From positions 1 through 20,963 of the IMG/VR virus record IMGVR_UViG_3300044998_000877: DNA of 20,963 nucleotides. The stretch is one strand, 5' to 3'. Below the pieces are notes generated by a model that did not search any database, was not told the origin of the DNA, and saw only the letters and a program-made list of their open reading frames with translations. This DNA comes from a virus. Below are positions 252-20,963 of this stretch, piece by piece; the stretch's first letter is position 1, and every line of letters begins with the position of its first letter. The position numbers and the translations under genes were made by a program.

Positions 252-286
252 ATCATCGTTTTGATTAGATTGATCGCCTAGCAATG

Positions 287-296: not shown

Positions 297-332
297 CCGC
301 CGTTTACGGTCTTATGGCCATCAGATGTGGAT

Positions 333-338: not shown

Positions 339-347
339 CGCCTGACC

Positions 348-3742: not shown

Positions 3743-4992
3743 AGCCTAGTTACAAAATGACTGAGGTGGGGGGCATCCCGGCCGATTGGCAGCTAACGTG
3801 TCTCGGCGCTCATGGAGAAACATACGGAGGCCTGACCGGTAAAACCAAAAAGGATTTCGGCACTGGCGACGCACAGTACGTTACGTTCATGAACGTCATT
3901 TCTAATGTCGTGATTAATTATGGCGCCTTCGATCGGGTCCATATTGCTACTGCCGAGTCTCAGAATCGGGTGCGCAAGAATGATCTGTTATTCAACGGGT
4001 CGTCTGAAACACCAGAGGAAGTCGCATTTTGTGCAGTTAATCTTGGAGATTTTCCAGATCTCTACTTGAACAGCTTTTGCTTCGGTTATCGGCTGCGTGA
4101 TCGGATCACAATCGACCCGCTGTTTCTTGCATACTTATTCAGGAGTAAAACAGGTCGTGCGCTCGTAAAGGCTCTTGCCCAAGGTTCTACCCGATACAAC
4201 ATCTCCAAGCGCGCACTTCTGGGCGCGCCGCTGGCATTACCTCCCGCCCCCGAACAACGCGCCATCGCGCAAGCACTGAGTGACGTCGATGCATTGCTCG
4301 CCACCCTTGACCAAGTAATTGCCAAGAAGCGTGATCTGAAGCAGGCGGCTATGCAGCAATTGCTTACGGGTGAAACTCGTCTGCCAGGGTTCAGTGGAAA
4401 TTGGGAGGTGAAGCAACTGGGGGATATTGGCCAGTTCTTGAAGGGGCGCGGTGTCAAGAAAGACGAAGCCCAGAGCGGGACGCTCCCCTGCATCCGTTAT
4501 GGCGAGATTTATACGCATCACAACGACTACATCAAGTCTTTTAACTCCTGGATTTCCCCGAAGGTAGCGGCAACGGCGACGAGATTGAAGCAAGGCGATT
4601 TGCTGTTTGCTGGTTCAGGCGAGACCAAGGAGGAAATTGGCAAATGTGTCGCCTTTATTGACGACTGCGAGGCGTACGCGGGTGGGGACACTGTGATTCT
4701 TCGAGCCACTGGCATCAACCCGATGTTCATGGGCTATTACTGCAACACTGCACCAATTGCTACTCAAAAAGCAAGCAAAGGACAGGGTGATGCCGTTGTT
4801 CATATTAGTGCTGCCGCATTATCCAGCATAGCTCTAGCGCTACCATCGCTTACTGAGCAAAACGCCATCGCCGACGTCCTTTCAGATATGGACGCTGAAC
4901 TATCCGCCCTGGAAGCCCGCCGGGACAAAACCCGCAACCTCAAGCAAGCCATGATGCAGGAGTTGCTCACCGGAAAGACGAGGCTGGTATGA
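3733..4992 (+). CDS. hsdS: Type I restriction-modification specificity subunit HsdS
   Basis: DNA-recognition subunit that directs both methylation and cleavage. The 419-aa protein has the classical pseudo-twofold layout. Target recognition domain 1 covers about 15-160, and a conserved helical spacer about 165-218 contains KKRDLKQAAMQQLLTGETRL. Target recognition domain 2 covers about 220-370, and a second spacer about 375-419 contains the parallel NLKQAMMQELLTGKTRL. The two spacers are clear internal repeats. It recognises a bipartite target that cannot be read from sequence. The start overlaps the end of hsdM and the stop overlaps the CD-NTase gene by ATGA. The first recognition domain is AT-richer than hsdM (28 of 60 GC at 3901-3960), consistent with domain swapping. 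No second hsdS or recombinase is nearby. Confidence 0.94.
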   Translation: MELKPSYKMTEVGGIPADWQLTCLGAHGETYGGLTGKTKKDFGTGDAQYVTFMNVISNVVINYGAFDRVHIATAESQNRVRKNDLLFNGSSETPEEVAFCAVNLGDFPDLYLNSFCFGYRLRDRITIDPLFLAYLFRSKTGRALVKALAQGSTRYNISKRALLGAPLALPPAPEQRAIAQALSDVDALLATLDQVIAKKRDLKQAAMQQLLTGETRLPGFSGNWEVKQLGDIGQFLKGRGVKKDEAQSGTLPCIRYGEIYTHHNDYIKSFNSWISPKVAATATRLKQGDLLFAGSGETKEEIGKCVAFIDDCEAYAGGDTVILRATGINPMFMGYYCNTAPIATQKASKGQGDAVVHISAAALSSIALALPSLTEQNAIADVLSDMDAELSALEARRDKTRNLKQAMMQELLTGKTRLV

Positions 4993-6305
4993 GCGTTGCT
5001 GAGATGTTTTCCGACTTTGTCGGCAATCTGGCGATTAGTAACGCGGAGACGATCAGCACGCGCTATGGCGAGTTGACGTCGGCGCTGAACAAGCAGTTTC
5101 GAGACACCGAATCAAAAACCGCGAACACGCTTCAGGTCGGATCGTTTGGCCGGAAAACGGGCATCAATGGCATTTCCGACTTGGACATGCTGTACATCAT
5201 GCCCAAGACCAAATGGGCCGATTACAACAAAGCCGGTGGGCAACTGAGCCTGCTGCAGGATGCAAAAGAGGCGATTCTCAAGCGCTACCCGACCACGAAA
5301 GTAAGGGTAGACCGCTTGGTCGTGACGGTCACCTACACGGACTTCCACGTCGAGGTTCAACCTGTTTTTGAACAGGACGATCAAAGCTATCTGTATCCAG
5401 ACACAAAAAACGGCGGTAGCTGGAAAACCACCAAGCCGAGAGAAGAGATGGCGGCAGTGGCGGATTTGGACACGAAAAAAAACGCCAATCTAAGGCCACT
5501 GTGCAAGATGGCCCGGGCCTGGAAGAACAAGCACGGCGTCGGCATGGGCGGGCTGCTGCTGGATACGCTGGCCTACAACTTTCTTGACTCAACCACGGAT
5601 TTCGACACCAAGAGCTTCCTCTACTACGACCGGATGAGTCGGGATTTCTTCAAATACCTGTCTGAACTGCCAGATCAAACCGAGTACGCTGCGCCAGGCA
5701 GTCGCCAGCGCGTCAAAGTCAAAAAGAAATTTCAGAAAAAGGCCAAAAAAGCCCACAAGCTCTGCGTAGAAGCCATCGAGGCCGAGAACCAGAAGAACGT
5801 CAACGACAAGTGGAAGAAGGTTTATGGGCGACCATTCCCAGCATCGGCGACGGTGGCTCAAGAGGCCGTAGCAAAGAGTTTTGCACAAAGCTGGGATGAC
5901 ACCGAGGAATTTATCGAAGACAAATTTCCAGTTGATATTCGAGAATCTATGCAACTGGATTGCGAGGTCAAACAGAACGGTTTCCGTGAGTTCTTCCTCC
6001 GCGAGATGTTGGCTAGGAGGATTCCTTTGAAGACCAAAAAGAGCTTGCGCTTCGAAATTACAGGTGTTTCGGCGGCAAAGCCGTATGACATCTATTGGAA
6101 GGTCCTAAATCGCGGCGATGCGGCCCGTAAGAGGAATTGCATTAGAGGGCAAATCATCAAAGATGATGGACTGATGCAGCGGACGGAAACTACCAGTTTT
6201 CCAGGCGATCATATCGTTGAGTGTTATTGCGTGAAGGATGGTGTGGTGGTCGCCAAAAACCGGATTCACGTTCCTATTAATGGGGAGCAGAACAATGACG
6301 ACTGA
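4989..6305 (+). CDS. CD-NTase (cGAS/DncV-like nucleotidyltransferase) with AGS-C sensor domain; CBASS synthase
   Basis: Predicted to make a cyclic di- or oligonucleotide second messenger on phage infection. In the 438-aa protein the nucleotidyltransferase signature GSFGRKT begins at residue 51 and is followed by DLD (64-66). A third acidic residue is probably E122 in FHVEVQPVF. These are the metal-binding residues of SMODS-type CD-NTases. The helical middle is lysine-rich (about 235-260). The C-terminal 80 residues or so (about 353-431) match the AGS-C sensor fold, with KPYDIYWKVLNRG, CIRGQI, RTETTSFPGDHIVECY and VVAKNRIHV. No Cap2/Cap3, HORMA or TRIP13 genes are present, so it would be a minimal type I CBASS. 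ATGA overlaps hsdS, and GAGG lies upstream of the start. The nucleotide product cannot be predicted here. Confidence 0.88.
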   Translation: MSVAEMFSDFVGNLAISNAETISTRYGELTSALNKQFRDTESKTANTLQVGSFGRKTGINGISDLDMLYIMPKTKWADYNKAGGQLSLLQDAKEAILKRYPTTKVRVDRLVVTVTYTDFHVEVQPVFEQDDQSYLYPDTKNGGSWKTTKPREEMAAVADLDTKKNANLRPLCKMARAWKNKHGVGMGGLLLDTLAYNFLDSTTDFDTKSFLYYDRMSRDFFKYLSELPDQTEYAAPGSRQRVKVKKKFQKKAKKAHKLCVEAIEAENQKNVNDKWKKVYGRPFPASATVAQEAVAKSFAQSWDDTEEFIEDKFPVDIRESMQLDCEVKQNGFREFFLREMLARRIPLKTKKSLRFEITGVSAAKPYDIYWKVLNRGDAARKRNCIRGQIIKDDGLMQRTETTSFPGDHIVECYCVKDGVVVAKNRIHVPINGEQNNDD

Positions 6306-6873
6306 CCACATCAATGTACTGGAAGGCCAGTTGCGCGAGTGTTACGGGCGAGTGGTCTACTCCCACAAAACACATGAGAAATGCGCGGACATTCTGTTTG
6401 AGCGGCAAGGGCACATAAAGCTAGCCCAGATCATTATCTCCGCCATTGTGACCGGGGGAATCGTTTCAACGTTTTTTGATGCGGGAAAAGTTGGGGCAGC
6501 AATTAGTGCAGTGTTGTCCACAGGGCTCCTTGCTCTGAATGCCTATACGAAAGACTATGACCTCGGTGAAATTGCTCAAAAGCATCGCCAAGCTGGTGCA
6601 GAGCTATGGATTGTCCGAGAAAAGTACCTGTCGCTCTTAACGGATATCCGCACAGGGGATGTTTCGTTGGAGTCTATTCGAGCACGTAGGGATACGCTTC
6701 TCGACGAACTGCACGCAGTTTATGTCGGAGCTCCCAGCACGAACTTTAAGGCCTACAGCAGGGCACAAGAATCACTGAAGAAGCTTGAAGACATGACATT
6801 TTCCGATGAGGAAATTGATGCCTTCCTTCCTAAAGAATTGAAAAGGGTTTCCAAGGGGGGTGGCAATGTCTGA
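6295..6873 (+). CDS. SLATT-domain two-TM protein, predicted CBASS membrane effector
   Basis: Predicted inner-membrane effector that would perturb the membrane when it senses the nucleotide made by the adjacent CD-NTase. The 192-aa protein has a soluble N-terminal helix, two hydrophobic segments at about 41-60 and 65-83, and a long helical cytosolic C-terminal part. The latter contains [21 protein letters not shown] (about 97-117), typical of SLATT domains (SMODS- and SLOG-associating 2TM effectors), probably family 5. ATG 6295 follows GGGGAG by 7 nt and overlaps the CD-NTase gene by 11 nt. An upstream in-frame ATG at 6238 lies inside that gene. The stop overlaps hsdR by 8 nt. GC is lower than in hsdR (30 of 60 at 6241-6300 against 37 of 60 at 8401-8460). 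The ligand-binding mode of SLATT effectors is inferred from family context. Confidence 0.82.
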
Positions 6874-9800
6874 GCAAACCCGATCTGAGCGCAAGACGCA
6901 GAACCGTGTTGCCGCATTGTTTACCGATGCAAGTCGCCCTGACTGCCTAGGGTACGATCACCTCGGTGAGTGGAGTAAACGCGACAACAACCGCTGCATA
7001 GAAGCAGATTTTTTGCGCAGCAACCTCAAGAAGCGCGGGTTTTCCGATGCGCACATTGCTGCTGCGCTGCAAAAGCTCCTGACCGCCGCCGACTCCACCG
7101 GCATCACCCTGTATCAAGCCAATCTGCGCACCTACCAACTGCTGCGCTATGGCGTACCGGTACAGATAGCAGCCGGTCAGGCGCATGAGACCGTACACCT
7201 CATCGATTGGGAAACGCCTGGCAACAACGACTTTGGCCTTGCCGAAGAGGTCACCTTGCGCGGCGGATACGAACGGCGGCCCGATCTGGTCGTGTACATC
7301 AATGGCATCGCGGTCGCCGTCATTGAGTTGAAACGCAGTTCGGTGGAGGTGGCCGACGGTGTTCGTCAGCTCATCACCAACCAGGAAGAGATTTTCAACA
7401 AAGGATTTTTCAGCACGGTGCAGTTGGTGCTTGCGGGAAGCGACTCGCAGGGTTTGCGCTACGGCACTACGGGCACCCCTGAGAAGTTTTTCGTCGAGTG
7501 GAAGGATAAAAGCGCCATCCCATCAGAGCCACTTGCAGAGGGTGCGCTGCTGGACATTCCATTGACGCAGATCTTTGACAAGGTGCGCCTGCTGGATCTG
7601 ATTCGCAACTTCATCATCTTCGATGGCGGGCAAAAGAAGGTGCCTCGCGTCCATCAATACCAGGCCGTGAAAGCGGCCCAGGAGCGGGTGAAGCAGCAGG
7701 AAGGCGGTGTGATCTGGCACACCCAAGGCAGTGGCAAGAGCATTCTGATGGTGCTGCTTGCCAAGTGGCTGCTGGAATATGACCCGCACGCCCGCGTCCT
7801 GGTCATCACCGACCGTGATGAGTTGGACAAGCAGATCGTGGGTGTGATGCGTAATGCAGGCGTGATTGGCGAGGATGCGGCATCGCCGCGCATCACCTCT
7901 CGCGTGGAACTGGTTGAAAAGCTAGGGGCAGCCACGCCCCGCCTGATGTGTGCGCTGATCCACAAGTTCGATACGACCGACCTGAAGGGTGAGCCGCCGA
8001 GGGTGGTGGGCCGTGTTTACGTCTTCGTCGATGAATGTCACCGCACGCAAGGCGGCGACATGAACAAGCAGATGAAGCGATGGCTGGAAAACGCCATCTT
8101 CATCGGTTTCACCGGCACGCCGCTCTTGCGCCGCGACAAGCAGACCACCCGCGAGGTTTTCGGCACCTACATCCACACCTACAAGTTCGATGAAGCGGTG
8201 GCCGACAAGGTGGTGCTTGACCTGAAATACGAAGCGCGTGATGTGCCGCAGCGCCTGACGTCAAAGAAAGCCATCGATGCGTGGTTTGATCAGAAAACCA
8301 AGGGGCTGAACAACTTTCAGCGTTCGGTTCTGCGTAAGCGCTGGGCGACGATGGAAGAGCTGATGAGTGCTGGTGAGCGCAAGCAGCGCATCATCGCCGA
8401 CATCATCCACGACTTCGGCGTGCAGCCGCGTCTGAACAATGACCGGGGCACGGCCATTCTGGTGGCCGCCTCCATCTACGACGCCTGCCACTACTTCCGT
8501 TTGTTTCAGAACACGTCGTTTGGCAAGTACTGCGGAATCATCACCTCCTACGAGCCCAACCACAACGCGATTTCGCGCGAGCCCAAGGACAGCGACGAGC
8601 GCTACAAGTTCGACACCTACACCCAGCATGTATTGAAGAACGGCCAGACGACCAAGCAGTATGAGGATGAAACAAAACGGCGCTTTATCGAGGAGCCTGC
8701 CAATCTGAAGCTGCTCATCGTGGTGAGCAAACTGCTGACCGGGTTCGATGCGCCTTCCTGCACCTACATCTACCTCGACAACGAGCTGCGCGATCACAAC
8801 CTGTTCCAGGCTATCTGTCGCACAAACCGGCTCGACGGCGACGACAAGGACTATGGCCACATCGTCGACTACAAAGAGCTGTTCGAGAAGGTGCAGGACT
8901 CTATCGCCGTTTACACCTCGGATGAGCTGGACATCGACGAAGGTGGCGATGACGGCAACGTAGCCGTGAAAGACTGGCTGAAGGAAGGCAAGGCGCAGCT
9001 TGATGCTGCCCGGGAAGCACTGCGCTACTTGTGTGAGCCGGTGGCCATGCCCCGTGAGATGGAGCAGTACCTCCACTATTTCTGCGGTGATGCCAACGAC
9101 CCAGAAGCTTTGCTGAACACCGAGCCGCTGCGCATCTCGTTCTACAAGTCAGCAGCCGCATTCCTGCGAGCCTATGCGGCAATTGCTCAGAACCTGGAGG
9201 ACGCAGGATATTCAGCGGCAGATATTGCTGCACTCGAAAAGGAGATCGAGTTCTACAGCGACACTCGCACGGCGATCAAGAAGCATTCAGGCGAAGAGTT
9301 GGACATTAAGCCTTATGAGGCGGATATGCGCCACCTCATCAACACCTACATCCAAGCAGACCCAGCTGAAGATTTGGGAAATCTCAGCTCGCTCTCACTG
9401 ACCGAGCTGATCATCGAAACCGGCATTCACGACGCTATTGCCAAGAAGCTCAACCAGAAGGGCAAGCTGTCGAGGAATGCGATTGCTGAAGGCATCATCA
9501 ACAACGTCCGCAAGACGATCATTCGGGATCAACTGACTGATCCGAAGTTTTACGACGAGATCTCCAAACTCCTCGAAGACCTGATCAAGCAAAAGCGCGA
9601 CGACACCGCTGCCTACGAGAAATTCCTCCAGAAGGCCGAAGAGTTGGTGAAAAAGATGGCGGCCAAGAATACGGGCAGCCATCCGCATGTACTCAACGGC
9701 CACCCGGAGGCCATCGCTCTCTTCAACAATCTGGCCAGTATTCCGGCCGCAACTTTCGTTTGTCCGACTGACGACGATGGCAAGGCGACGCTTGCGCTCG

Positions 9801-9958
9801 AACTCGATCAGGCGATGCGAGAGCAGGCCCCGGCAGGCTGGAGAGGGGATGGCATCCGTGAGAAGCAGGTGCTCAATGCGCTGTTTCCCATCATGTCGCG
9901 GGATCGGGTGGCGACGCAGGCTATTTTCGAAATCATCAAGAACCGATCGGGGTACTGA
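6866..9958 (+). CDS. hsdR: Type I restriction endonuclease subunit HsdR
   Basis: ATP-dependent translocase and nuclease of the restriction complex, cutting unmodified foreign DNA. The 1030-aa protein has an N-terminal PD-(D/E)xK nuclease with D140, E154 and K156 (PDLV, then IELK). The superfamily 2 motor has Walker A TQGSGKS (286-292), a DECH box (389-392) and FTGTP soon after. Later helicase motifs include LLTGFDAP and QAICRTNR. A helical C-terminal domain of about 300 residues probably docks on HsdM. The length resembles EcoR124-type HsdR. ATG 6866 is preferred over GTG 6860, because the AAGGGGGG run at 6853-6860 provides a ribosome binding site only for the former. It overlaps the SLATT gene by 8 nt and the next gene by 1 nt. 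All key catalytic residues are present. Confidence 0.95.
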
Positions 9959-10674
9959 TGAACGAGACGATCCAACTGGGCGAGATTTCAATAGCGGTGA
10001 CGAGGAAGGACATCAAGAATGTCCACCTCACCGTTCATCCCCCTGATGGACGTGTGACTCTCGCCGCCCCAACTAACACTCGCCTAGAAGTAGCGCGTGC
10101 CTACGCGATATCCAAATTGGTATGGATTCGTGAGCAACAGAGAAAACTTGATGCCCAAGCGCGGGAAACACCACGCCAGTTCGTTGAGCGCGAGAGCCAC
10201 CACGTTTGGGGGCGGCGCTACCTAATGACGGTGGACTACCAGGATGTAAAGCCTAGTGTTGTCCTCAGCAACAAACGGATCACCCTGATTGTTCGTCCGG
10301 GCAGCAGCGCGGAAAAGCGCGCGGAGGTGATGCATGAGTGGCACAAGTCGTTGCTGCACAAGGTTGTACCGCCACTGATCCAAAAGTGGGAGCAAAAGCT
10401 CAAGGTGAGCGTTTCAGGCTATTTCCTGCAACGGATGAAAACCAAGTGGGGTAGTTGCAATCACGCAGAGGGAAACATTCGCCTCAATACGGAGCTGGTG
10501 AAAAAGCCTAAGGATTTACTGGAGTACGTCGTCGTGCATGAAATGGCTCATTTAATCGAGCCCACGCACAGTGATCGCTTCATCGCCATCCTTGAAGAGC
10601 ATTACCCCAGCTGGCGCGAGGCCCGCGCCGAGCTCAACGAATTGCCGCTGGGTGCAGAGGTTTGGAAGGAGTGA
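9958..10674 (+). CDS. YgjP-like zinc metallopeptidase domain protein (DUF45/COG1451)
   Basis: Predicted cytoplasmic zinc-dependent hydrolase of unknown substrate. The 238-aa protein matches the YgjP/DUF45 family. A beta-rich N-terminal half is followed by KTKWGSC (a conserved family motif), NTELVKKP and HEMAH (residues 194-198), with a further histidine, H204, in PTHSDRF as the probable third zinc ligand. E195 would be the catalytic base. Family members are frequently found next to hsdR in type I restriction loci, but their role there is not established; a part in turnover of HsdR or phage proteins is speculation. The start overlaps the hsdR stop as TGATG-type coupling, and the stop is 1 nt before the next ATG, so it is part of the operon. 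Confidence 0.85.
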   Translation: MNETIQLGEISIAVTRKDIKNVHLTVHPPDGRVTLAAPTNTRLEVARAYAISKLVWIREQQRKLDAQARETPRQFVERESHHVWGRRYLMTVDYQDVKPSVVLSNKRITLIVRPGSSAEKRAEVMHEWHKSLLHKVVPPLIQKWEQKLKVSVSGYFLQRMKTKWGSCNHAEGNIRLNTELVKKPKDLLEYVVVHEMAHLIEPTHSDRFIAILEEHYPSWREARAELNELPLGAEVWKE

Positions 10675-10675: not shown

Positions 10676-11623
10676 ATGGCACTGAATCTGGCAAAGGTCG
10701 TCATCGGCTATCTGAAAGATCGGCCCGAGCAGAAATTCACTGCACGGCAGATCGCCGAGTGGGTGTTCGCTTCCTACCCGGATGAGTGTCAGGAAAAGCG
10801 TGCCAACAGCCGTGGCGACTACATAAAGTCCGACGCGGATTTGGTGCAGCAGCTCGTCGCAGAAATCAGCTCACAGCGCCCGCGCATGCAAACGAAGCAT
10901 CCAGAACTCAAAACGACTGAAGGACGGCCGCGCAAGTACTACTACTCGGAGCGCTCGGATAGCGCCGAAGTGGCGGCGGCCGAAAGCGAGAGCACGTCAA
11001 CGGCTGCGGATGCAAGTGTTTTGAAGATTGACGAGCACGCTCTGTACCCGCTGCTCTCGCAATACCTGTGGGAGGAGTTTGGCGTTTTCTCCAAGCGGAT
11101 CGACGAGAAGCGTTCGTCGAACAAGCGCGGGCCCAACGGCAACCGCTGGCTGTACCCGGACGTGGTGGGCATGGAGGACTTGGGCAAGGAGTGGCACCGC
11201 GAAGTGCGCGACTGCGTGACGCAGTATTCCGACAAGCGCACCAAGCTGTGGTCGTTCGAGGTCAAGCTGCTGATCAACCGTTCGAACGTACGCGAGTGCT
11301 TCTTTCAGGCCGTGTCGAATTCATCGTGGGCCAATTTCGGCTATCTGGTTGCGGCGGAAATCGGCGGCACCGACACGTTGAAGGAGCTACGGATGCTCTT
11401 CGCGGCACACGGCATCGGCTTCATCAAGCTGGACGTGGACAACCCTGCTGACAGCCAAGTGCTGATTCCGGCGCGTGAGCGCGATGAGATCGATTGGGAC
11501 ATGGCCAATCGGCTGGCCACGGAGAACCGGGATTTTCTTGAGTACGTGAAGCTGGTGAAACAGTTCTACCAGACCGGCGAGGCACGGCTGGCGGACTGGG
11601 ACGTTCCCGAGACGGGGGACTGA
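10676..11623 (+). CDS. HrgA/COG2958-like protein, possible nuclease-related defence accessory
   Basis: A 315-aa protein resembling the COG2958/HrgA family, which is linked to restriction loci. The N-terminal region (about 1-90) looks like a HARE/winged-helix fold, with LNLAKVVIGYLKDRPEQKF and TARQIAEWVF, and ends with GRPRKYYYS. An acidic, Ala/Ser-rich linker (about 92-115) follows. The C-terminal domain (about 120-300) has YPDVVGMEDLG and WSFEVK, with E195 and K197 in an E-x-K strand, followed by RECFFQAVSNSSWA. This is reminiscent of PD-(D/E)xK nuclease-like folds, with the aspartate of YPDVVG as the candidate first acidic residue. Activity is not proven. AAGGAG lies 4 nt before ATG 10676. 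An earlier in-frame ATG at 10571 lies within the metallopeptidase gene. It is the last gene of the operon, ending 4 nt from a convergent phage gene. Confidence 0.72.
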   Translation: MALNLAKVVIGYLKDRPEQKFTARQIAEWVFASYPDECQEKRANSRGDYIKSDADLVQQLVAEISSQRPRMQTKHPELKTTEGRPRKYYYSERSDSAEVAAAESESTSTAADASVLKIDEHALYPLLSQYLWEEFGVFSKRIDEKRSSNKRGPNGNRWLYPDVVGMEDLGKEWHREVRDCVTQYSDKRTKLWSFEVKLLINRSNVRECFFQAVSNSSWANFGYLVAAEIGGTDTLKELRMLFAAHGIGFIKLDVDNPADSQVLIPARERDEIDWDMANRLATENRDFLEYVKLVKQFYQTGEARLADWDVPETGD

Positions 11624-11627
11624 CGGG

Positions 11628-11924
11628 TTATTCCAGATGGCCGATCACGTCGAGGCGTTCATCGCCACGCTGAAACGCCCCGAACCAGCCGTCGCGCGAG
11701 TCGACGCGCGTGCGGCTCACCAGCAACGTGAACCCCTCGCAGCCGCGCCCCTTGGCGGTGGCGAAGTCGGTGGTGTCGAATTTGGCCTCGCGCACCAGCG
11801 TCGTGGCCAACGACTTCATCGCCGATTCAAAGAGGTCGAGCAGATGGTCTTGCAGGCTGGCGTCGATGTTGCGCGAGGTCACGTCATCGATGACGGCGGT
11901 TTTGAATCTGCTGCTTTTGCTCAT
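11628..11924 (-). CDS. Hypothetical phage protein downstream of lysozyme
   Basis: A 98-aa protein that I do not recognise. It begins MSKSSRFKTAVIDDVTSRN and has no signal peptide, membrane segment or known motif. A helical region (about 20-48, with HLLDLFESAMKSLATTLVRE) is followed by a strand-rich half containing GFTLLVSRTRVD and DGWFGAF. ATG 11924 is the natural start, but the preceding AGGGCG is a weak ribosome binding site. It is last in the leftward phage transcript, about 80 nt after the lysozyme stop, where auxiliary lysis or cargo genes often lie. Its TAA is 4 nt from the stop of the convergent HrgA-like gene. The codon pattern and collinearity support a real gene. Confidence 0.6.
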   Translation of the reverse strand: MSKSSRFKTAVIDDVTSRNIDASLQDHLLDLFESAMKSLATTLVREAKFDTTDFATAKGRGCEGFTLLVSRTRVDSRDGWFGAFQRGDERLDVIGHLE

Positions 11925-12003
11925 TGGTAGCGCCCTGTATTGGTGCAGGTGACATGAACGCGCTGTTCTGCGGCAAAGCCAAGCTCTTCTGCGCGGTTCG
12001 AAA

Positions 12004-12468
12004 TCACACGTTGCGAAGCAGCCAAAAGACCTCCGCCTCGCGCCGAGTGACGAGCCCGGGCAGCACTTTCCCGCCGCCATACACCCAGCGACGCAGCTCC
12101 TGGCCTGCAGCAATCCAATCCCGCTGATTGACGCGTCGTCGCAGCGTCGATGTCTGCAACCGCCCCGCGCCGAGGTTGAAGGTGAAGTCCACGATAGCCG
12201 CCAGTCGCCCCTCCGGCTCGGTGGCCAGCACCGGGCAGTAGCGCAGCGTGGCGTTCAGCGCGGTCCTGAGGTCGGTAGCCAAGTAGCTCTCCGCCTCGGC
12301 CTCCGTGATCGGAGGATGTTTCGGATCGCAGAGGTGGCCATAGCCGATGGTCCAGTAGCCGGCCGGGCAGACATAGGGATGTGCACGGCCGGGATCGGCC
12401 CTCGGCACCCGATGGAACCCCTCGAAGCGCTTGGCCAGGTCGATGGCCGCCTGCGGCACTGCGATCAC
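12004..12468 (-). CDS. Phage endolysin, GH24 lysozyme
   Basis: Muramidase that would degrade peptidoglycan at the end of the lytic cycle. The 154-aa protein shows LAKRFEGF with catalytic E16 and the WTIGYGH motif with T40. C34 sits in the position often held by aspartate, with the usual five-residue spacing to T40. The gap from E16 to C34 is 17 residues, longer than the eight typical of T4-like and P22-like enzymes. The conserved C-terminal AIVDFTFNLGAGRL and WVYGGGKVLPGLVTRRE are present. No signal peptide or SAR segment is visible, so release should depend on the holin upstream. The start is probably GTG 12468, overlapping the holin stop as GTGA; GTG 12459 is an alternative. The same strand and coupling place it in the lysis cassette. 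Confidence 0.88.
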   Translation of the reverse strand: MIAVPQAAIDLAKRFEGFHRVPRADPGRAHPYVCPAGYWTIGYGHLCDPKHPPITEAEAESYLATDLRTALNATLRYCPVLATEPEGRLAAIVDFTFNLGAGRLQTSTLRRRVNQRDWIAAGQELRRWVYGGGKVLPGLVTRREAEVFWLLRNV

Positions 12469-12941
12469 GGCCGCACCCGGTCGAACACGCGGCCGAGGAA
12501 CCAGAAGTTCAGCACCCCGGCCCACAATGCCTGATCGGCCTCGGTCCAGGCGTGCAGGATCGCCGCACCCCAATCGGCGCCGCCCGACATCGCCCCGACG
12601 AAGGCCGCTGTCTTCGCCGCGCAGTACAGCGCCATGAACCAGTAGGTGATGACGGGACGAACGCTGCTGGAGAGGGCATCGGCCCAGCGCACGCTCGAAC
12701 GCTGCCCCTGCGCCGCGACGGCCTCTCGCAAGGCATCAATGGCCCCGGTATTCCACGCGGCATCGGCACCCGCGCCGATTTCCGACATCCGCTGCGCGCC
12801 ACGCAGCTTCTCGAACTCCAGCGCCTTGTCCTGCATCGCCAGTTCGTGGCCACGCTCGCCTTTGCGGTCCAGCCACTTCAGGACCTCCGGTGCCAGACGG
12901 AAGGCCCCGCCGAGGAGGCCGCCGAGCAAGGTCTCGATCAT
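12465..12941 (-). CDS. GTA-type three-TM holin
   Basis: Predicted membrane protein that releases endolysin to the periplasm. The 158-aa protein matches the 3-TM holin family described from gene transfer agents. It has an N-terminal amphipathic/hydrophobic stretch (MIETLLGGLLGGAFRLAPEV) and a charged helical middle (about 25-85). SSVRPVITYWFMALYCAAKT is the hallmark motif, followed by hydrophobic segments around AAFVGAM and LWAGVLNFWFLGRVF. ATG 12941 overlaps the preceding stop as ATGA. A longer open frame to 13133 lies over the upstream gene and is not used. It is followed directly by lysozyme. Membrane topology was judged by eye. Confidence 0.82.
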   Translation of the reverse strand: MIETLLGGLLGGAFRLAPEVLKWLDRKGERGHELAMQDKALEFEKLRGAQRMSEIGAGADAAWNTGAIDALREAVAAQGQRSSVRWADALSSSVRPVITYWFMALYCAAKTAAFVGAMSGGADWGAAILHAWTEADQALWAGVLNFWFLGRVFDRVRP

Positions 12942-13240
12942 TGCGGGCCTCCCATCAGTTTCAACTTGATGGCAGCGCCAACGAGCAGCGCGGCCAGGAT
13001 GCCGGCGGTGATGACCTTGACGATGGTCTGCCAGGCCGTGCGCCGAGCATCGCGCCAGGCTTCCAGCAGATCGCGCAGTTCGCGAATGTCCTTCGCGGCA
13101 CTGCCGTTCTCCAGCCCGAGATGGGCAAGGCAACGCTCGGCTCCGCGTTCAGCGGCGCGGTCGAGCAGTTCGTCGAAGTCCTCGCGCCGGATGAGCAGCA
13201 TGTTTTCCACGAGGGCGGCGGGTTGGTGTTCGTCAGTCAT
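12938..13240 (-). CDS. DUF6127-like small membrane protein of the lysis region
   Basis: A 100-aa protein with LIRREDFDELLDRAAERGA, then DIRELRDLLEAWRDARRTAW, then one strong hydrophobic segment near the C-terminus (about 75-93, TAGILAALLVGAAIKL). This layout fits the DUF6127 family seen in prophages and alphaproteobacterial genomes, whose function is unknown. The position directly before the holin suggests an auxiliary lysis role, such as an antiholin or spanin-like anchor, but no lipobox or Rz signature is seen. ATG 13240 has GGAG 6 nt upstream, and the stop overlaps the holin start. It is the first gene after a hairpin and probably opens the lysis module. Confidence 0.68.
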   Translation of the reverse strand: MTDEHQPAALVENMLLIRREDFDELLDRAAERGAERCLAHLGLENGSAAKDIRELRDLLEAWRDARRTAWQTIVKVITAGILAALLVGAAIKLKLMGGPQ

Positions 13241-13304: not shown

Positions 13305-13655
13305 TCAGATGGCGAGGCCTGCGCTCCAGCCGGTGGACTTGTAGGCCGAGAGCTTGGCCTCGTCCTCGATGTAGCAAAGCCAGCCGGTCTGCGGCACGTA
13401 GTACTCCCAGACGCCGCCGATGCGCACCGCGATCTGGTTGGTTTTGCCTGCCCACACGCCCGTGGCACCGGCAGGAATGAGGTAGCGGTCGCCGTTGGCG
13501 GGGCTGGCCGGGGGCGTGGTCAGGTCGCGGTCTTTCACGGACAGGCCGACCACCGCGCCGAGGCGCTTGAGATTGGCGTCCATGCCGGTGTCCCAGCCGC
13601 TTTCGCCGAGCGTCCAGCCGTAGTTGAGTCCAAGGTTCGGGTCTGTTGATGACAT
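13305..13655 (-). CDS. DUF2793 phage tail-associated protein
   Basis: A 116-aa protein matching the DUF2793 pattern found in phage and GTA tail clusters. An N-terminal GLNYGWTLGESGWDTGMDAN segment precedes TTPPASPANGDRYLIPAGAT, GVWAG, and GVWEYYVPQTGWLCYIED. The repeated short beta strands with Gly-Trp pairs suggest a small beta-rich fold, usually placed at the end of tail fibre or tail tip proteins. Here it is a separate gene. ATG 13655 has AGGAG 6 nt upstream, immediately after the stop of the preceding gene. Its exact role in the virion is unknown. Confidence 0.78.
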   Translation of the reverse strand: MSSTDPNLGLNYGWTLGESGWDTGMDANLKRLGAVVGLSVKDRDLTTPPASPANGDRYLIPAGATGVWAGKTNQIAVRIGGVWEYYVPQTGWLCYIEDEAKLSAYKSTGWSAGLAI

Positions 13656-13669
13656 GGTCTACTCCTGAG

Positions 13670-14266
13670 TTATGGGAGGTGCACTGCGGCACGAACGCGC
13701 TGCAGATCAGCATCAGCACTGCGCCGATGCGCCTGGTCTGGATGCTGACGCCATTTCCGACCGATGATGGGCAAGTGCAAAACGGGCGATTTTTTCGACA
13801 GTCGAAGAGTGAGCATCCATTCCGGGTACAACAAAAGACCATCAATAAAACCCACTTCGGTTCGAACAGCAGAGCGTCGATACATGACACAACTGTGGAC
13901 GAGATCAGCACGTTGTACGTGCATCCATCTGCTGTATGCAAGGCGACGATTCCCTAGAATTTGGCCGTCGCTGTCAATCAGCGTTTCATCGGTATATGCA
14001 AGGGATGCTTGCGGGCAGGCATCAAGGGAATCGGCCATTTGTACAAAAGCACTGGCGTCATAGATGTTGTCAGGGTCGACAAAACTGATGTACTCAGCCC
14101 CATCCTTGGCAATGCAATCAACCCAGTCGTCCCCCATCGGCGTATCTCGATTGGTGTGTATCAGCTCAAGCCGAATGTCTGGGTGCGAAAGGCTTTCAAT
14201 TGCGGCAGCCCGCCAGCCCTCTGGCTCGTCAATCGTAAGCATGTAGGCATCAATTCGCGGCTCCAT
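13670..14266 (-). CDS. Small GT2-like glycosyltransferase encoded in the tail operon
   Basis: A 198-aa protein with the features of a GT-A fold, family 2 glycosyltransferase. A short N-terminal strand-helix unit is followed by EYISFVDPDNIYD with a D64-P65-D66 metal/nucleotide-sugar motif. YTDETLIDSDGQ comes next, and a C-terminal R-x-HPDQ element (about 172-177) like the conserved tail of GT2 enzymes. At 198 aa it is shorter than typical GT2 proteins. It could modify tail proteins or host surface sugars; the substrate is unknown. ATG 14266 is joined to the previous stop as TGATG and has GGGGAGG just upstream. GC is lower than its neighbours (30 of 60 at 13861-13920 against 38 of 60 at 14701-14760), which suggests a separate origin. 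Confidence 0.68.
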   Translation of the reverse strand: MEPRIDAYMLTIDEPEGWRAAAIESLSHPDIRLELIHTNRDTPMGDDWVDCIAKDGAEYISFVDPDNIYDASAFVQMADSLDACPQASLAYTDETLIDSDGQILGNRRLAYSRWMHVQRADLVHSCVMYRRSAVRTEVGFIDGLLLYPEWMLTLRLSKKSPVLHLPIIGRKWRQHPDQAHRRSADADLQRVRAAVHLP

Positions 14267-16539
14267 CACACACCTCCCCAATACTGTCCCCAACGCAGGC
14301 CGTAGCCCGCGCGATCCATGACCCGCACCTGCGGCTGCCAGCTACTCAAACCATCGCGCTCGGCACTGATCTCCATCGTGATGCGGTCGCCCAGCGCACC
14401 GGCATCCAGCGCGGCCACTGCTGCCGTCCAGATGTAGGCGGAGCCGAGCAGTCCCGTTTCGGTGTGCGCCAGCACGCCATTGCGATTGCGGATGCGTACC
14501 GTGTAGGTCACACCCAGTTCTGGCCCGATGTCGCCCTCGTCTTGCTGCACGAGGTAGGCGGTCTGCTGCGTGCGGTCGCGATGCGCCCACGTGACGGCGA
14601 GATCACCGGCCACCACGGCAGGCTCGGTCTGGCCGTTGAGGCGGATGCGACCGGGGGAATACGGCAAGGCCTGCCGACCGGCCAGCACCACCGGCTGCCC
14701 ATTGGCGGCCAGTACAGGATCGCCCTGATCGGTCGACGTGCGAGGAATCGCGCCCACGAACACCGACTCGCCGGGTGCGCGCTCGGTACCTTCGGATGCC
14801 AGCCAGTCGCCGACGCCGATCAGCCGTGTCCCCGCCGGGTGGGCCTGTGGGGTGGTGTCGAGCACACCGCGCGCGAGATCGATGGTCGCGTTGGCAGCAT
14901 CGAAGGCCAGGACGGCAACGGCCTCTGCAATGGCCCCACTGGCATCCACCAGATAGACATAGTCGCCGACGGACAGCCTCTCCGGCTGGCTGATGGCCGT
15001 CACCGGCACACCGATGGCATCGACCTCGCTGGCAGGCAAGGCCACATCGAGCGTGAGCAGCGGCGCATAGTCCTCGCCCACGACGGCCGCAAGGTCACCG
15101 CTGGAAGCTCCGGTGGCCAGTTGCCAATTCAACTGCCCGGTGCCACCGGCGGCAGCCAGCGCACCGAGATAGGTGTCCGTATCGGTCAGGTAGGCCAGAT
15201 CTGCACGCGACAAGCGCCGGGCCAGTTCCCAATACGGCACCTCGACGGCCAGCACCAAGGCGGGTGGCAACGGTGAGAGGGTCGGCGCCTCGACCTGCGG
15301 TGGCGGGGGCGACAGCACGGTGTTGCTCATCCCGAATACATCTTCCATCGCGTCGATGCGCCACTCGGCCGCACTCAAGGTGCAGGTGTCGATGCCGGTG
15401 ACGCGCACCACCATCCGCTCGATGCCCAAGCGCGGCCAGTTCAGCAGGAATACATCGCCCGGCAGCGGCGCGCGTTCCAGTGTGTCGCGTGCCACGGTCA
15501 GGCTCATCCGGGCCAGGGGCGAACCCAAGGCACGCAGGTCACGCAAGGCCAGCCGCGCAGCCAGTGGCCCGTAGTTCACGCCCGGGTAGTCGCGGCGCTG
15601 ATTGATCACCCCGCCTTGCAACTGGATGGCGGCCAGGTTCTCGACCGTGACCGTCGCATCACCGCCGGTCTGCCAGTCCGTGTAGACCACGGTCAGCTCG
15701 TTGGGCAGCTCGCCCCATTGGGCGCGCTCGAAGCGCTCGATCCGCACGATCTCGTCGGGCCCCAACTGCGGCAGGCTGTCGATCCAGTAGTCGTCGCGCA
15801 GCAGCTTGAGCTCAAACGTGCCTTGCTCCGGGTCGGTGTAGAGGATGCCGCCGATGTGGTCGAGGACCTGACCGATGAAACTCTCGATGGGCTGCTGGCG
15901 CGTCCAGATCAGATTGAGGCCGAAGCCCTCACTCGACAAAGCCCACGCCGCATTCCAGAAACTCCAACCGATGCTGCTCTGCGGATAGCCCATACCCCAA
16001 TGCGGATCGGTGAGGCACTGCACCAGGATGTGCGCCGGGTTCATGCCGACGCTGATCTCACGGGCCTCAATCTCATCCCAGGTGCGGACTTCGGCATTCC
16101 ACTCCATCCATGGCGCATCGAACCATCCCGCCTTGAAGCGCCGCACCCGCACCGCCCACGGTTTGATGTAGGGGTTGTTGGCCGCGAACAGGATCTTGCG
16201 TGCCACCAAGGACAGCACGCCCCGAAATGCCGGAATGGAACTGCCGAGGCGACTCATCAGATAGTCGTTGCGGCCCTGACCAGCATGGCCAGAAAGCACA
16301 TCGATGGTGCCGACCACGCCGCCTTCGCGCTCGTCGCCGCCAAACAGCGTGGGCTTGTTGATCGAGAGGCTGCTCAGCCCATGCCCGCTGGACAGCGGCG
16401 CACGGTCGGCATCGCCCCATGCGGTACGGTCGCCCATCTGGATTTCCTGCACGGCATCGACCGGCCCCTGGCACAGCACCAGATGCAGTCCCATCCGGTA
16501 GCGGTAGCCGACGGTTTGCTTCTTGCTGCTGCCACCCAT
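14266..16539 (-). CDS. Tail tip / host-specificity (J-like) protein
   Basis: Central tail-tip protein, probably contacting the host receptor and forming the hub with the BR0599 protein. The 757-aa protein starts MGGSSKKQTVGYRYRMGLHL. It has the early motifs GPVDAVQEIQMGDRTAW and PYIKPWAVRVRR, a baseplate-hub-like middle (ILVQCLTDPHWGMGYP, then GGILYTDPEQGTFELKLLRDD), a proline-rich linker (SPPPPQVEAPTLSPLPP, about 420-440) and a beta-rich C-terminal half. It ends with GYGLRWGQYWGG. This layout resembles large tip proteins that follow BR0599 genes in siphoviral prophages. ATG 16539 is chosen because GGAG lies 8 nt before it and it forms TGATG with the previous stop; a TTG at 16572 is less likely. 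Confidence 0.8.
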   Translation of the reverse strand: MGGSSKKQTVGYRYRMGLHLVLCQGPVDAVQEIQMGDRTAWGDADRAPLSSGHGLSSLSINKPTLFGGDEREGGVVGTIDVLSGHAGQGRNDYLMSRLGSSIPAFRGVLSLVARKILFAANNPYIKPWAVRVRRFKAGWFDAPWMEWNAEVRTWDEIEAREISVGMNPAHILVQCLTDPHWGMGYPQSSIGWSFWNAAWALSSEGFGLNLIWTRQQPIESFIGQVLDHIGGILYTDPEQGTFELKLLRDDYWIDSLPQLGPDEIVRIERFERAQWGELPNELTVVYTDWQTGGDATVTVENLAAIQLQGGVINQRRDYPGVNYGPLAARLALRDLRALGSPLARMSLTVARDTLERAPLPGDVFLLNWPRLGIERMVVRVTGIDTCTLSAAEWRIDAMEDVFGMSNTVLSPPPPQVEAPTLSPLPPALVLAVEVPYWELARRLSRADLAYLTDTDTYLGALAAAGGTGQLNWQLATGASSGDLAAVVGEDYAPLLTLDVALPASEVDAIGVPVTAISQPERLSVGDYVYLVDASGAIAEAVAVLAFDAANATIDLARGVLDTTPQAHPAGTRLIGVGDWLASEGTERAPGESVFVGAIPRTSTDQGDPVLAANGQPVVLAGRQALPYSPGRIRLNGQTEPAVVAGDLAVTWAHRDRTQQTAYLVQQDEGDIGPELGVTYTVRIRNRNGVLAHTETGLLGSAYIWTAAVAALDAGALGDRITMEISAERDGLSSWQPQVRVMDRAGYGLRWGQYWGGV

Positions 16540-16766
16540 CAGTCTTGCTCCTGCTGGATAGATTTCTGGCAAGCGTGCGCTTGTGCGTAATCCACCACGC
16601 GCCTTGCCATTGCATCGCCGGTGGCCAGCAAGGTGGCAGCGTCACAGCCCTCCCTCAGGAAGGCGCGGAAATCCAGATCGTGACGTGCAAACCATGTGCG
16701 TGTGCCGTTCACGCACAGTCCCACGGCGCGCACGTGATCGATCGTGACGGTCACATCCGTGGTCAT
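16539..16766 (-). CDS. Small conserved phage tail-region protein
   Basis: A 75-aa protein beginning MTTDVTVTIDHVRAVGLCVN, with HDLDFRAFLREGCDAATLLA and a helical end (DAMARRVVDYAQA). No membrane segment or known motif is recognised. Its start overlaps the previous stop as ATGA, and its stop overlaps the tail-tip start, so it is translated within the tail operon. Small proteins in this slot, between a BR0599 hub and the tip protein, are common, but their function is not known to me. It could be an assembly factor. Confidence 0.7.
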   Translation of the reverse strand: MTTDVTVTIDHVRAVGLCVNGTRTWFARHDLDFRAFLREGCDAATLLATGDAMARRVVDYAQAHACQKSIQQEQD

Positions 16767-16990
16767 TTTTTGCCTCCTTTCTTCTTGATCGGTTCGGCTT
16801 CCAGATCGCCGTACCAGACGACGTTGGCACCGCGCAGCAGCACGGTGCCGAACACGACGGGAATCGGTCGGCCTTCTTCTGCGGTGGGGGCATCGACGTC
16901 AGACAGGGACGCCGGTTTGGGCTCGGGCGGTTTCGGCGCGAGCGCGACCGAGACCAACGCCGCCACCACGATGACGACGAGGTACCACAT
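16763..16990 (-). CDS. Small membrane-anchored tail-assembly protein
   Basis: A 75-aa protein with an N-terminal hydrophobic segment (residues 1-18, MWYLVVIVVAALVSVALA). A proline-rich stretch (PKPPEPKPA) follows, then EEGRPIPVVFGTVLLRGANV, VWYGDLEAEPI and a basic tail KKKGGKK. The PIPVVFGTV...NVVWYGD pattern recurs in small proteins preceding phage tip genes and also resembles the N-terminal start of tip proteins. It may help position the tip. ATG 16990 has GAGGA 7 nt upstream, 20 nt after the hub gene. Membrane insertion is inferred from hydrophobicity only. Confidence 0.72.
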   Translation of the reverse strand: MWYLVVIVVAALVSVALAPKPPEPKPASLSDVDAPTAEEGRPIPVVFGTVLLRGANVVWYGDLEAEPIKKKGGKK

Positions 16991-17010
16991 GGCAATTCCT
17001 CAGAAGGGTT

Positions 17011-17799
17011 TCAGAACACGCCGGTCGAGAACGGGTTTTTGCTTGGGATGAACGGAAATCCCCCGAAGTTTTCGAGGTTGCCGAAGCGCGAGGCGCACGT
17101 GGCCGTGCTGTGATCGCAGCCCACTGTCAGTTGCACCTCGGTGCCGACTTCGATGGCGACCGGATAGAGCAACTCGACGCCGCCACCGTAGTCATTGACG
17201 ATCATGTGGCGGGCACCTTCCGGGGTTTGCAACCAGCCACCGGCCAAGCCACCGCTGACGCTGCCGGGCACGCCGCCATCGAGATCGACGTTGCGGCCAT
17301 AGCTGTTGCTCACCAAGGCGCTCTCGGAAATCGGTGATGCGCCGCAGGCCGCCGAATACAGCACATGGGAACACTTGCGGCTGTAGAGCCGCCGCAACCC
17401 GATGCGCTTGAGACTGACTTGCGCGGACTCACAGCGAACCCGAGCCACATCGTCCGCGACTTCGACGCCCAGCACCCGGCCCATCCAGCGCGTGCCGGAG
17501 ATCCACCAGTAGTCGCCCCAAGTGTCGCGCCGTCCGATGCGCAGGGTAATCGAGGTGGTGTCGCCGGTCAGCGCGTTGGCGAGCAGGTGGCGCACCAAAT
17601 CACAGTTCGGCGGCAGTTTCAGATCCAGCGCAGCCTTCGCGGCTTCGGCCCCCAGCGCCAGTTCGTTGCGTTCGATGGACAGGCTGGTGTACAGCGTGCC
17701 GCCGAGATCGACGTCGAATTCGTGCGGCGTCAGATAGAACTGCGCGCTGTTGCTGACGAAGGCGTAGAGCTCGACCTCCATCAGCTGTTGGTTGCTCAT
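17011..17799 (-). CDS. Tail hub protein, DUF2163/BR0599 family (gpL-like)
   Basis: Structural protein of the tail tip. The 262-aa protein has an N-terminal DUF2163-like part (about 1-135, with YAFVSNSAQFYLTPHEFDVD and RWMGRVLGVEV). The C-terminal BR0599 domain has CSHVLYSAACG, RHMIVNDYGG, TVGCDHSTATC and the ending FGNLENFGGFPFIPSKNPF. Four cysteines lie as C143-x8-C152 and C228-x6-C235. As I recall, this spacing matches the iron-sulphur cysteines of lambda gpL (C173/C182 and C205/C212). ATG 17799 overlaps the upstream stop as ATGA. The frame stays open to 18228, but that part lies over the upstream gene. Related to gene-transfer-agent hub components. Confidence 0.85.
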   Translation of the reverse strand: MSNQQLMEVELYAFVSNSAQFYLTPHEFDVDLGGTLYTSLSIERNELALGAEAAKAALDLKLPPNCDLVRHLLANALTGDTTSITLRIGRRDTWGDYWWISGTRWMGRVLGVEVADDVARVRCESAQVSLKRIGLRRLYSRKCSHVLYSAACGASPISESALVSNSYGRNVDLDGGVPGSVSGGLAGGWLQTPEGARHMIVNDYGGGVELLYPVAIEVGTEVQLTVGCDHSTATCASRFGNLENFGGFPFIPSKNPFSTGVF

Positions 17800-19385
17800 A
17801 CGGCGTACTCTCCATATGTTTCTCGGTCGTTGCCGCGAGGCTCTGGCAACTGGCGCGCGGTCAGGGTGATCTCCACCAGATTCGGGCTGTGCCAGTACAG
17901 ATCGATGGCGTCGTGGTCGAGGCGGCAGCGCACGAGGCGAATGACGCGGCTGCCTGCGGGCACTTGAGTCTCGAGGCCCGAGCGCAGCACCAGCACACCA
18001 CTCTGATCCAGATGGCAGGTCGCCGTCAGGGCGTACTGCCGATAGCCGTCTGGCTGCACGATCAGGCAGGCGGCGGGGCGATGCCAAAAAACCGAGATTC
18101 GTGCGGAGATGTCTTTGCCATCCACACGCAGGAAGCCGTCCTCGGGATCGGCTTCGACGGTCACCCACAGGATCGGGGCCAAACCGTCGGGCAGCCAGAA
18201 TGCTTCCAGACGGCCTTGGGTGCGCCACAACCGCGCCCGCCAGATTTCGATTTCATCGAGTGAGCTGGCCAGATAGCGCCGCTGCAAAGTTGTCGTCGCC
18301 CACGGATCGTCCCGGCGCACCCACGGATCTGCAGGCGAGAAGTCTTGGCGGGTGATCGTTGCTTGCACGGCTGCCGTCGGATCATCACGCCAGTTGCCAT
18401 CCGGCCAGACCGGAATCTCGTCGAGCCATGGGTCATCTAGCACCTCCAGGTCGGGCAATGGCGCAGGCTGGATCTGCGCAGGTACGTTGCCGCCGACCAT
18501 GCCGGGCACCCACTGCGTGAGATCTGCCGGGTCGATGGCCTTGCCCCACACCAGGGGCATGACGGTGCTGCCCACGGCGGCGGCGCGTGCCAAGGGCTCC
18601 GTCAGCCACAGCAGATCGCTTTCCACGTCGCTGAGTTGGGCGATCTGCCAGCCATCGGCGGCGATGATCAGCACCCAGCGGCCATTGCTCTCTGTCTCCT
18701 GCCAGCCCTGCACCCCGTCGTAGCTCAGATGCACATTGGCCGAGAGTGGCCCGAACTGTCGCCCATCTGCCTCCGTCACATTGAGTGCCAGTGCGCCACG
18801 TTCGCAGGACTCGGTCAGGTGCACCGCGTACTGCGGCAGCGGCCACAGCGCCATTTGACCGAGATGATCGGCCAGCCAGTCGGCCACCAGCGCATCGGTC
18901 TGACGAGCGTTACCCACCTTGTAGGTGAGCCAGCGCCGAGGAACGCGTCGGCGTGCCTGCCGGGATTCGTTGCCACTGGCCAGCCGCGCGACGCTGGTCT
19001 GCCATTCCAGTCGTTCAACCAACGGCTCGGCCCAGTCGTGGCGGAAGGCAAACACGCCGCGTTGTGCGTCGGGCCACGGCTGGTCGCCAAAAGCATCCAT
19101 GCCGGTGGCGACGATGGCGCTCGAGGCCGTGTCGCGGCGCAGCACTTCGACCAGGAAGATCGGCGCATCAATAGGTGGCCTGGGGCCCACCAAGGATTCC
19201 GCCAGCAGGCTCGCCGTCAGATTGGGCGGCAGCGGAGCGACCACTGTTTCCGGCGTGAAGCGGGCTGCGCCCGCCCCGAAGGTGGCCCGCGAGAGCACTT
19301 CATTCTGGAAGGCGGATAGTTCGCTTCCCGGATTTGGCTTGCTGGAAATCTCAGCGATGTCTTGAACGACGACGCGTTCCGTCAT
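17796..19385 (-). CDS. Phage tail protein, possibly distal tail or fibre-attachment component
   Basis: A 529-aa protein without a domain I can name firmly. The first third contains FAFRHDWAEPLVERLEWQTS followed by RQARRRVPRRWLTY. A second stretch, DEIEIWRARLWRTQGRLEAF, has similar W-rich, arginine-rich character, suggesting two related beta-rich modules. The linker around 300-330 is Pro/Asp-rich (LPDLEVLDDPWLDEIPVW). The C-terminus has LVRCRLDHDAIDLYWHSPNL and is beta-rich. Position between the ConA-like tail protein and the BR0599 hub, with ATGA overlaps on both sides, places it in the tail tip or baseplate. It could be a distal-tail-like adaptor. Function is inferred from gene order only. 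Confidence 0.7.
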   Translation of the reverse strand: MTERVVVQDIAEISSKPNPGSELSAFQNEVLSRATFGAGAARFTPETVVAPLPPNLTASLLAESLVGPRPPIDAPIFLVEVLRRDTASSAIVATGMDAFGDQPWPDAQRGVFAFRHDWAEPLVERLEWQTSVARLASGNESRQARRRVPRRWLTYKVGNARQTDALVADWLADHLGQMALWPLPQYAVHLTESCERGALALNVTEADGRQFGPLSANVHLSYDGVQGWQETESNGRWVLIIAADGWQIAQLSDVESDLLWLTEPLARAAAVGSTVMPLVWGKAIDPADLTQWVPGMVGGNVPAQIQPAPLPDLEVLDDPWLDEIPVWPDGNWRDDPTAAVQATITRQDFSPADPWVRRDDPWATTTLQRRYLASSLDEIEIWRARLWRTQGRLEAFWLPDGLAPILWVTVEADPEDGFLRVDGKDISARISVFWHRPAACLIVQPDGYRQYALTATCHLDQSGVLVLRSGLETQVPAGSRVIRLVRCRLDHDAIDLYWHSPNLVEITLTARQLPEPRGNDRETYGEYAV

Positions 19386-20452: not shown

Positions 20453-20470
20453 GGGACTTTCCCCTGAAAT

Positions 20471-20963
20471 TCAGCCCTGCAGCGCCGCACGGATGGCCCG
20501 TGCATTGCGCCCGATGATGTTGACGATGACTTTCTCTCCGGCAGGCGACTGCAGGTGGTCGTGGGTGACGCCCGGATCGACCGCGTTGACGATGCGCACC
20601 GCCTGATTGACCTGCGGCTGTGCCGGCGGCATCCGCACTTCGGGCACCAGACCGCCGGCCGCAAAGGCCAGCTCACCACCTTTGAAACGCGGGCCTGCTG
20701 ACAAGCCGTTGAGCGAGTCGAGGAAGGCCACACCGACCTGGCGCACGGCGGCCGCCCGCACCACGTACTCGCCTGCGGACAGGCGCGCCGGGATCGAATC
20801 CGATGTCGAGGTGCCAGGGCCAGACACCAGGCCACCGGCGGCAAACTTTTTCACCTTGCCCAACAGCGCCATCACGGCGGCGACCATGGCGGCCATCGCG
20901 GCAATGGCCAGCCCCGGGCCGACGATGGGGATCGAGGCTTGCGAAGCCGCCGCCCCGGCTCCT
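20471..20963 (-). CDS. Tail tape-measure protein, C-terminal part (cut by window edge)
   Basis: Only the last 164 codons or so are visible. The frame is open through the right edge, and the methionine at 20896 is internal. Visible are an Ala/Gly/Ile/Met-rich hydrophobic stretch (GPGLAIAAMAAMVAAVMALL) and AAGGLVSGPGTSTSDSIPAR followed by LSAGEYVVRAAAVR. This GGxVxGPGTxTSDSIPAxLSxGEYV-type ending is characteristic of tape-measure proteins, which set tail length and are ejected into the host. A second AAGGLVP repeat and a valine-rich end (EKVIVNIIGRNARAI) follow. The stop is 18 nt before the ConA-like gene. Size and N-terminus cannot be judged. Confidence 0.87.
   Translation of the reverse strand, partial: GAGAAASQASIPIVGPGLAIAAMAAMVAAVMALLGKVKKFAAGGLVSGPGTSTSDSIPARLSAGEYVVRAAAVRQVGVAFLDSLNGLSAGPRFKGGELAFAAGGLVPEVRMPPAQPQVNQAVRIVNAVDPGVTHDHLQSPAGEKVIVNIIGRNARAIRAALQG

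Follow-up and report, generated by a model that had tools for sequence, protein, structure and literature searches.

The virus record analyzed here (20,963 bases, hereafter the window) very probably represents an end portion of a temperate phage whose integration site is the 3' end of the host tmRNA gene and which carries a swappable cargo module that includes the small gene orf98; we put the probability of this reading at about 0.85. The phage genes of the window run leftward and end with the endolysin gene, and the cargo operon lies beyond it on the opposite strand. The GC content is 0.49-0.59 across HsdM to HrgA versus 0.65-0.69 in the phage genes. The features of the window are as follows.

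88..113, minus strand: terminator-like hairpin directly past the tmRNA 3' remnant, resembling the terminators behind the intact tmRNA genes of relatives
121..154, minus strand: attachment-site (att) remnant, like the 3' end of tmRNA (ssrA), from the sequence and from relatives
252..268, no strand: operator-like inverted repeat ATCATCGTTTTGATTAG, degenerate in the window, between att and WYL
327..1250, plus strand: WYL-domain regulator (Pfam PF13280, E 9.7e-14; recurrent position)
1259..3742, plus strand: HsdM, type I methyltransferase (sequence match)
3733..4992, plus strand: HsdS, type I specificity subunit (sequence match)
4989..6305, plus strand: CD-NTase (SMODS and AGS_C), putative CBASS cyclase (domain matches)
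6295..6873, plus strand: SLATT_4 protein with two TM segments, putative CBASS effector (domain match)
6866..9958, plus strand: HsdR, type I restriction subunit (sequence match)
9958..10674, plus strand: YgjP/SprT-like metallopeptidase (sequence match)
10676..11623, plus strand: HrgA-like protein, final gene of the cargo operon and its phage-side bookend (39 viral and 54 genome relatives)
11624..11627, no strand: gap of 4 nt between convergent stop codons
11628..11924, minus strand: orf98, 98 aa, linked to HrgA (recurrence, dN/dS, predicted model)
11925..12003, no strand: likely true phage/cargo seam, from the orf98 start to the endolysin stop (39 lysis loci continue without orf98 and HrgA)
12004..12573, minus strand: endolysin, phage lysis (phrog_7; the coding start may be internal)
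12465..12941, minus strand: phrog_6637 protein (p6637), adjoining the endolysin (PHROG match)
12938..13222, minus strand: phrog_10540 protein (p10540) (PHROG match)
13305..20962, minus strand: tail fibre, tail, and tail-assembly genes (PHROG), the final gene being cut by the contig end

HsdM, HsdS, and HsdR, a type I restriction-modification set, all lie within one operon of the window, which the CD-NTase and the SLATT_4 effector of the putative CBASS system share; the NCBIfam cyclase model matched this CD-NTase with 114 of 200 bits, below its cut-off. The WYL domain adjoins the defence operon, as in BrxR/WYL defence regulators. The CBASS pair (4989-6873) is nested between HsdS and HsdR, and the same nesting was seen in an Aeromonas plasmid (L002) and a genome locus (L192); in two other plasmids (L003 and L004), the type I genes are present but no CBASS pair is annotated. 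A search for repeats within the window found nothing of note. Pseudomonas plasmids such as pDTG1 contain DNA 87.6% identical to part of the window tail gene (14921-16521), in two pieces over about 3.7 kb, and no phage genes are listed at these tail-like segments.

Read on the minus strand from 154 to 121, the att remnant is GCGGACGCGGGTTCAGTTCCGTGTTCCGCCACCA, followed by the terminator-like hairpin, which is probably the terminator of the host tmRNA. The remnant lies exactly 186 nt from the WYL start in the window and in L232, L129, L231, and L125, and 177 nt from it in L127. Neither ARAGORN nor Rfam (gathering thresholds) found a tRNA or tmRNA in the window; the remnant is only a tmRNA 3' end. 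In seven relatives (L174, L175, L182, L183, L192, L193, and L211), an intact tmRNA gene ending in ...GGACGNGGGTTC...CCACCA is located beyond the phage side; therefore, as judged from these sequences, the attachment site is the 3' end of tmRNA. Furthermore, a single 58-kb viral contig (L125) has, in order, the fibre gene, p10540, p6637, the lysis genes, the cargo, WYL, att, a tyrosine integrase, and a primase, and the integrase adjoins att also in L127. The proposal of the initial annotation that the defence operon sits between the lysis genes and an attachment site agrees with this order and with the remnant at 121-154. The window itself has no integrase and is cut at 20,963 before that end, so that its own second att is not visible; its assignment to a tmRNA-integrating phage is by homology, and in principle the leftmost 120 nt might represent an attP arm. 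A locus that speaks against the reading is Ramlibacter L191, where an intact prophage-like block has the tmRNA 45 kb away and has no WYL. A search of the available stretches of Ramlibacter L191 and Cardiobacterium L173 gave no distal copy of att.

It had also been suggested that the operon travels with the prophage. This is largely supported, by the continuity of L125, and needs a qualification, since plasmids without phage genes carry the operon core as well. An attachment site near 11,625, which would have spoken against such carriage, was looked for, and none was found. The same data bear on the possibility that two separate elements, a defence island and an abutting prophage, stand in tandem at the tmRNA gene. 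Such an arrangement would fit with tmRNA being a repeated landing site, with the duplication of tmRNA or att sequence in L174 and L232, and with the existence of phage-free cargo at tmRNA (L174), but it fits poorly with the lack of an att copy near 11,625, with the single att on the far side of the cargo, and with the recurrence of the same order and of a 3-9 nt join in dozens of contigs and hosts. Because L125 is continuous through the integrase and att is single, independent elements in tandem are largely excluded, and we regard this explanation as very improbable.

Two further observations concern integration sites. In the Methylophilaceae locus L232, the roughly 70 nt that follow the att remnant at 16175 are nearly identical to those after the intact tmRNA, a hint that elements integrated serially at a single site. 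In Duganella sp. 1411 (L217:1003-1078), the block from WYL through the cargo to HrgA starts beside a tRNA-Phe gene, and the cargo may thus use other integration sites as well.

At the other end of the cargo operon, the initial annotation had described convergent stop codons 4 nt apart with no terminator between them, and both statements hold: TGA at 11621-11623 on the plus strand is followed by CGGG at 11624-11627 and by TTA at 11628-11630, the TAA of the minus strand, and a hairpin scan of 11,600-11,650 was empty. The nearest terminator-like hairpins are at 11279-11298 and 11894-11913, in a scan that found 7 per 5 kb where 4.1 are expected by chance. Among 70 related loci carrying both orf98 and HrgA, the stop-to-stop gap is 3-9 nt in 63 (exactly 4 nt in 34 and 6 nt in 16); the remaining seven comprise six negative values from cut-off or disrupted copies and one gap of 135 nt. 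Alignment of 18 joins revealed variation of the coding type, and no hairpin with a T-run was conserved in them. Chance adjacency of HrgA and orf98 was rejected because the gap is conserved across loci.

The gene on the phage side of this join, orf98, is over-extended in the list of open reading frames (11628-12113) relative to the conserved 98-aa gene, which is present in 39 viral contigs. Its dN/dS values against relatives are 0.09-0.18 (nine computable comparisons), indicating purifying selection, and because of these values orf98 is, as far as sequence comparison tells, a real gene. No match to orf98 was found in PHROG, Pfam, or NCBIfam. The predicted model of orf98 has a pLDDT of 87 and had no match in PDB below E 0.1 and none among viral models below E 0.03; profile searches of PDB with orf98 and with HrgA gave nothing significant for either, and neither protein had a match in 50,697 phage records.

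The initial annotation took orf98 as the last gene of the lysis module and thereby placed the seam between phage and defence genes at 11,625. We found this assignment improbable. Among 46 lysis loci of the phage family of the window with at least 1.3 kb beyond the endolysin, orf98 and HrgA were both present in seven, both absent in 39, and never found singly, so that every orf98-positive locus of the family has HrgA; several of the 39 loci without them have other genes, including restriction and helicase genes as read from translations, that are convergent and close to the lysis gene. Furthermore, orf98 is preceded on the lysis side by different neighbouring gene clusters (c5, c8, c20, and c35), and it was present in all 39 viral HrgA loci with enough sequence. 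It shares the strand of the endolysin, however, and a few contigs (L100 and L113) have orf98 and other cargo without HrgA. The pairwise divergence of orf98 points both ways: its correlation with that of HrgA (r 0.60-0.66) is above those with p10540 (0.32) and p6637 (0.19), but not clearly above that with the endolysin (0.55, almost equal to the lower value for HrgA). The simplest reading of these comparisons is that orf98 arrived with the cargo. Since orf98 then belongs with HrgA, the seam would move to the 79-nt gap upstream of orf98 (11,925-12,003), and the tight join would be inside the cargo module and not at its edge.

The HrgA-like protein has relatives in 39 viral contigs and 54 genome loci, mostly of Beta- and Gammaproteobacteria, and is 42-45% identical over 96-97% to plasmid proteins annotated as HrgA. 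No Pfam match was found. In the alignment, P161-D162, E195, K197, and Q211 are invariant, which suggests a nuclease activity or a PD-(D/E)XK fold; the AlphaFold model is of poor quality in the part containing these residues and unfit for structure search. HrgA also occurs away from phage genes, beside host genes in Xanthomonas L181 and Advenella L185 and on plasmids. In many loci, a 258-aa CD-NTase with SMODS only (c15; for example, L133:9213-9989) lies directly before HrgA, which suggests that pairing of CD-NTase and HrgA is frequent.

The WYL end and the HrgA/orf98 end are conserved, and the genes between them are exchanged. By Pfam, the genes between WYL and HrgA (or before HrgA at contig ends) encode type I restriction, GmrSD, McrBC, a DNA methylase of the type III kind, patatin with CD-NTase, SMODS with SLATT, a caspase-domain protein, and HerA with a kinase. 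Judging from these domain matches, the cargo is swapped among type I, III, and IV restriction, CBASS, and caspase-type genes. On the phage side, there are at least four sets without shared tail clusters, as defined by protein clustering only. At this place, the defence genes of related phages thus vary while the genes flanking them are conserved, which is the arrangement that defines a hotspot, and the gene content indicates that unrelated phages carry interchangeable sets of predicted anti-virus genes at one spot between the lysis genes and att. The gene order of the window operon is that of Methylophilaceae L192 and, minus HrgA, that of the Aeromonas plasmid pAV1812-2. Because the operon core occurs on plasmids without phage genes, it is not confined to this phage.

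Repression of defence operons from inverted repeats is known for WYL proteins such as BrxR (PMC9122601). An inverted repeat of the type ATCATCA-TGATGAT, located 44-75 nt before the WYL match, is conserved in 25 of the 28 upstream regions examined, some of which are overlapping records.

The related loci range from those with long runs of phage genes (L170, L171, L172 of Thauera sp. 2A1, L176, and L205) to one with none. In L192, the series WYL-HsdM-HsdS-CD-NTase-SLATT-HsdR-YgjP-HrgA is followed by orf98, the endolysin, a cut-off p6637, the tmRNA, and then host genes. L175 and L211 have only damaged phage remnants beside the cargo, and in L174 the cargo is at tmRNA with no phage gene. The occurrence of the operon in place without phage genes had been named as a finding that would count against its travel with the prophage; it was found in L174, with remnants kept in L175 and L211. 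Because L192 keeps the operon together with orf98, the endolysin, and a cut-off phage gene at tmRNA, we read L174, L175, and L211 as probable decayed prophages; for L174 alone, decay and independent arrival cannot be separated. Parvibium lacunae L174 has two tmRNA-like copies (11164-11498 and 13903-14265), one of them low-scoring (66.7 bits), and between them are two minus-strand genes, one AbiEii-like by translation.

Along this series, all 15 genome loci that have at least 1.3 kb of matching phage genes contain full-length orf98, compared with 2 of the 22 that have no such genes, while HrgA persists; the Fisher value of 1.5e-8 ignores relatedness, and the loci are related. In the plasmid collection, there was no match to orf98, though 28 records have HrgA relatives. 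These counts suggest that orf98 is kept only where a phage is present. One tentative explanation, which would add to the main one, is that orf98 serves self-protection, as an inhibitor expressed by the phage that silences HrgA or the operon at induction. The counts just given and the purifying selection on orf98 would agree with this, and a precedent exists in Ith, which inhibits the prophage defence Tha (PMC11087260). However, orf98 has no fold match, some phage-free HrgA loci may never have had it, and autoimmunity was not prevented when ith was placed in the late packaging region (PMC11087260); we therefore consider the self-protection role rather unlikely. Equally doubtful is the wider view of an exchangeable defence cassette that is common to unrelated temperate phages, has standard ends, and contains orf98 as a safety catch: orf98, on the phage late strand, would switch off HrgA or the operon so that the phage grows in an armed cell, and decay would lose the catch and keep the defence.

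As for the phage-borne module itself, the sequence shows a self-contained cargo operon that starts at WYL, 186 nt inside att, and ends at the HrgA-like gene; orf98 would be part of the module and not of the lysis genes. For the working of the module, we propose the following. By analogy with its relatives, the WYL protein may act as a repressor of the operon at the inverted repeat, which overlaps the promoter. In the lysogen, the operon would be expressed and would block competing phages through type I restriction and CBASS. Recombination between the homologous bookends would allow phages to exchange the middle, and the tail-to-tail join would put both transcript ends in 4 nt and keep the cargo apart from the late operon. 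After decay of the phage, the host would retain the cargo beside tmRNA.

The tmRNA att, WYL, HrgA/orf98, and the endolysin provide anchors for a simple way to extract predicted defence systems from phages. Such phages appear to be absent from deposited phage genomes, as neither HrgA nor orf98 was in the 50,697 records. The gradation from intact phage to phage-poor island illustrates how prophage cargo can give rise to a defence island of the chromosome. Should orf98 indeed restrain HrgA, this would explain how prophages of this group survive the weapons that they carry.

Defence hotspots in phages have been described before (PMC9122126), as has the role of tmRNA as a landing site that has defence genes in its vicinity (PMC10250203). 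A late-end, tmRNA-adjacent site framed by WYL, HrgA, and orf98 was not described in the literature searched; the coverage was partial, and this is not proof of novelty. In the P2/P4 hotspots, anti-phage systems are likewise exchanged at a fixed place between conserved phage anchor genes. However, those hotspots are about 1-5 kb and adjoin cos, whereas the present site lies between the lysis genes and att at tmRNA, is framed by WYL and HrgA/orf98, and holds about 11 kb of cargo in the window; these cargo ends are found together with several sets of tail genes that are unrelated to each other. The Acidithiobacillus phage AcaML1 matches about 1.1 kb of the lysis genes with 81% identity at the DNA level and has Dcm and McrBC beyond its lysozyme, but its cargo is on the same strand as the lysis gene, its tail is annotated as the contractile type, and no WYL, HrgA, or orf98 is annotated there. 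As with BrxR/CapW (PMC9122601), a WYL protein heads varied defence operons with an inverted repeat upstream; the difference is that here the putative regulator has a fixed place, next to the att of a phage, and the repeat is of the specific ATCATCA-TGATGAT type. Tha/Ith (PMC11087260) offers a model of how a phage gene can shield its phage against a defence system carried by that phage; ith forms an antisense non-contiguous operon with the cI operon, whereas orf98, whose protective role is putative, is convergent to HrgA at the late end. Finally, cDHS2 of P. aeruginosa (PMC10250203) also has defence genes beside ssrA, and a small percentage of the sites contain prophages. That hotspot is chromosomal and consists of mixed mobile elements, whereas the cargo described here lies inside a phage, with a visible decay to phage-poor islands.
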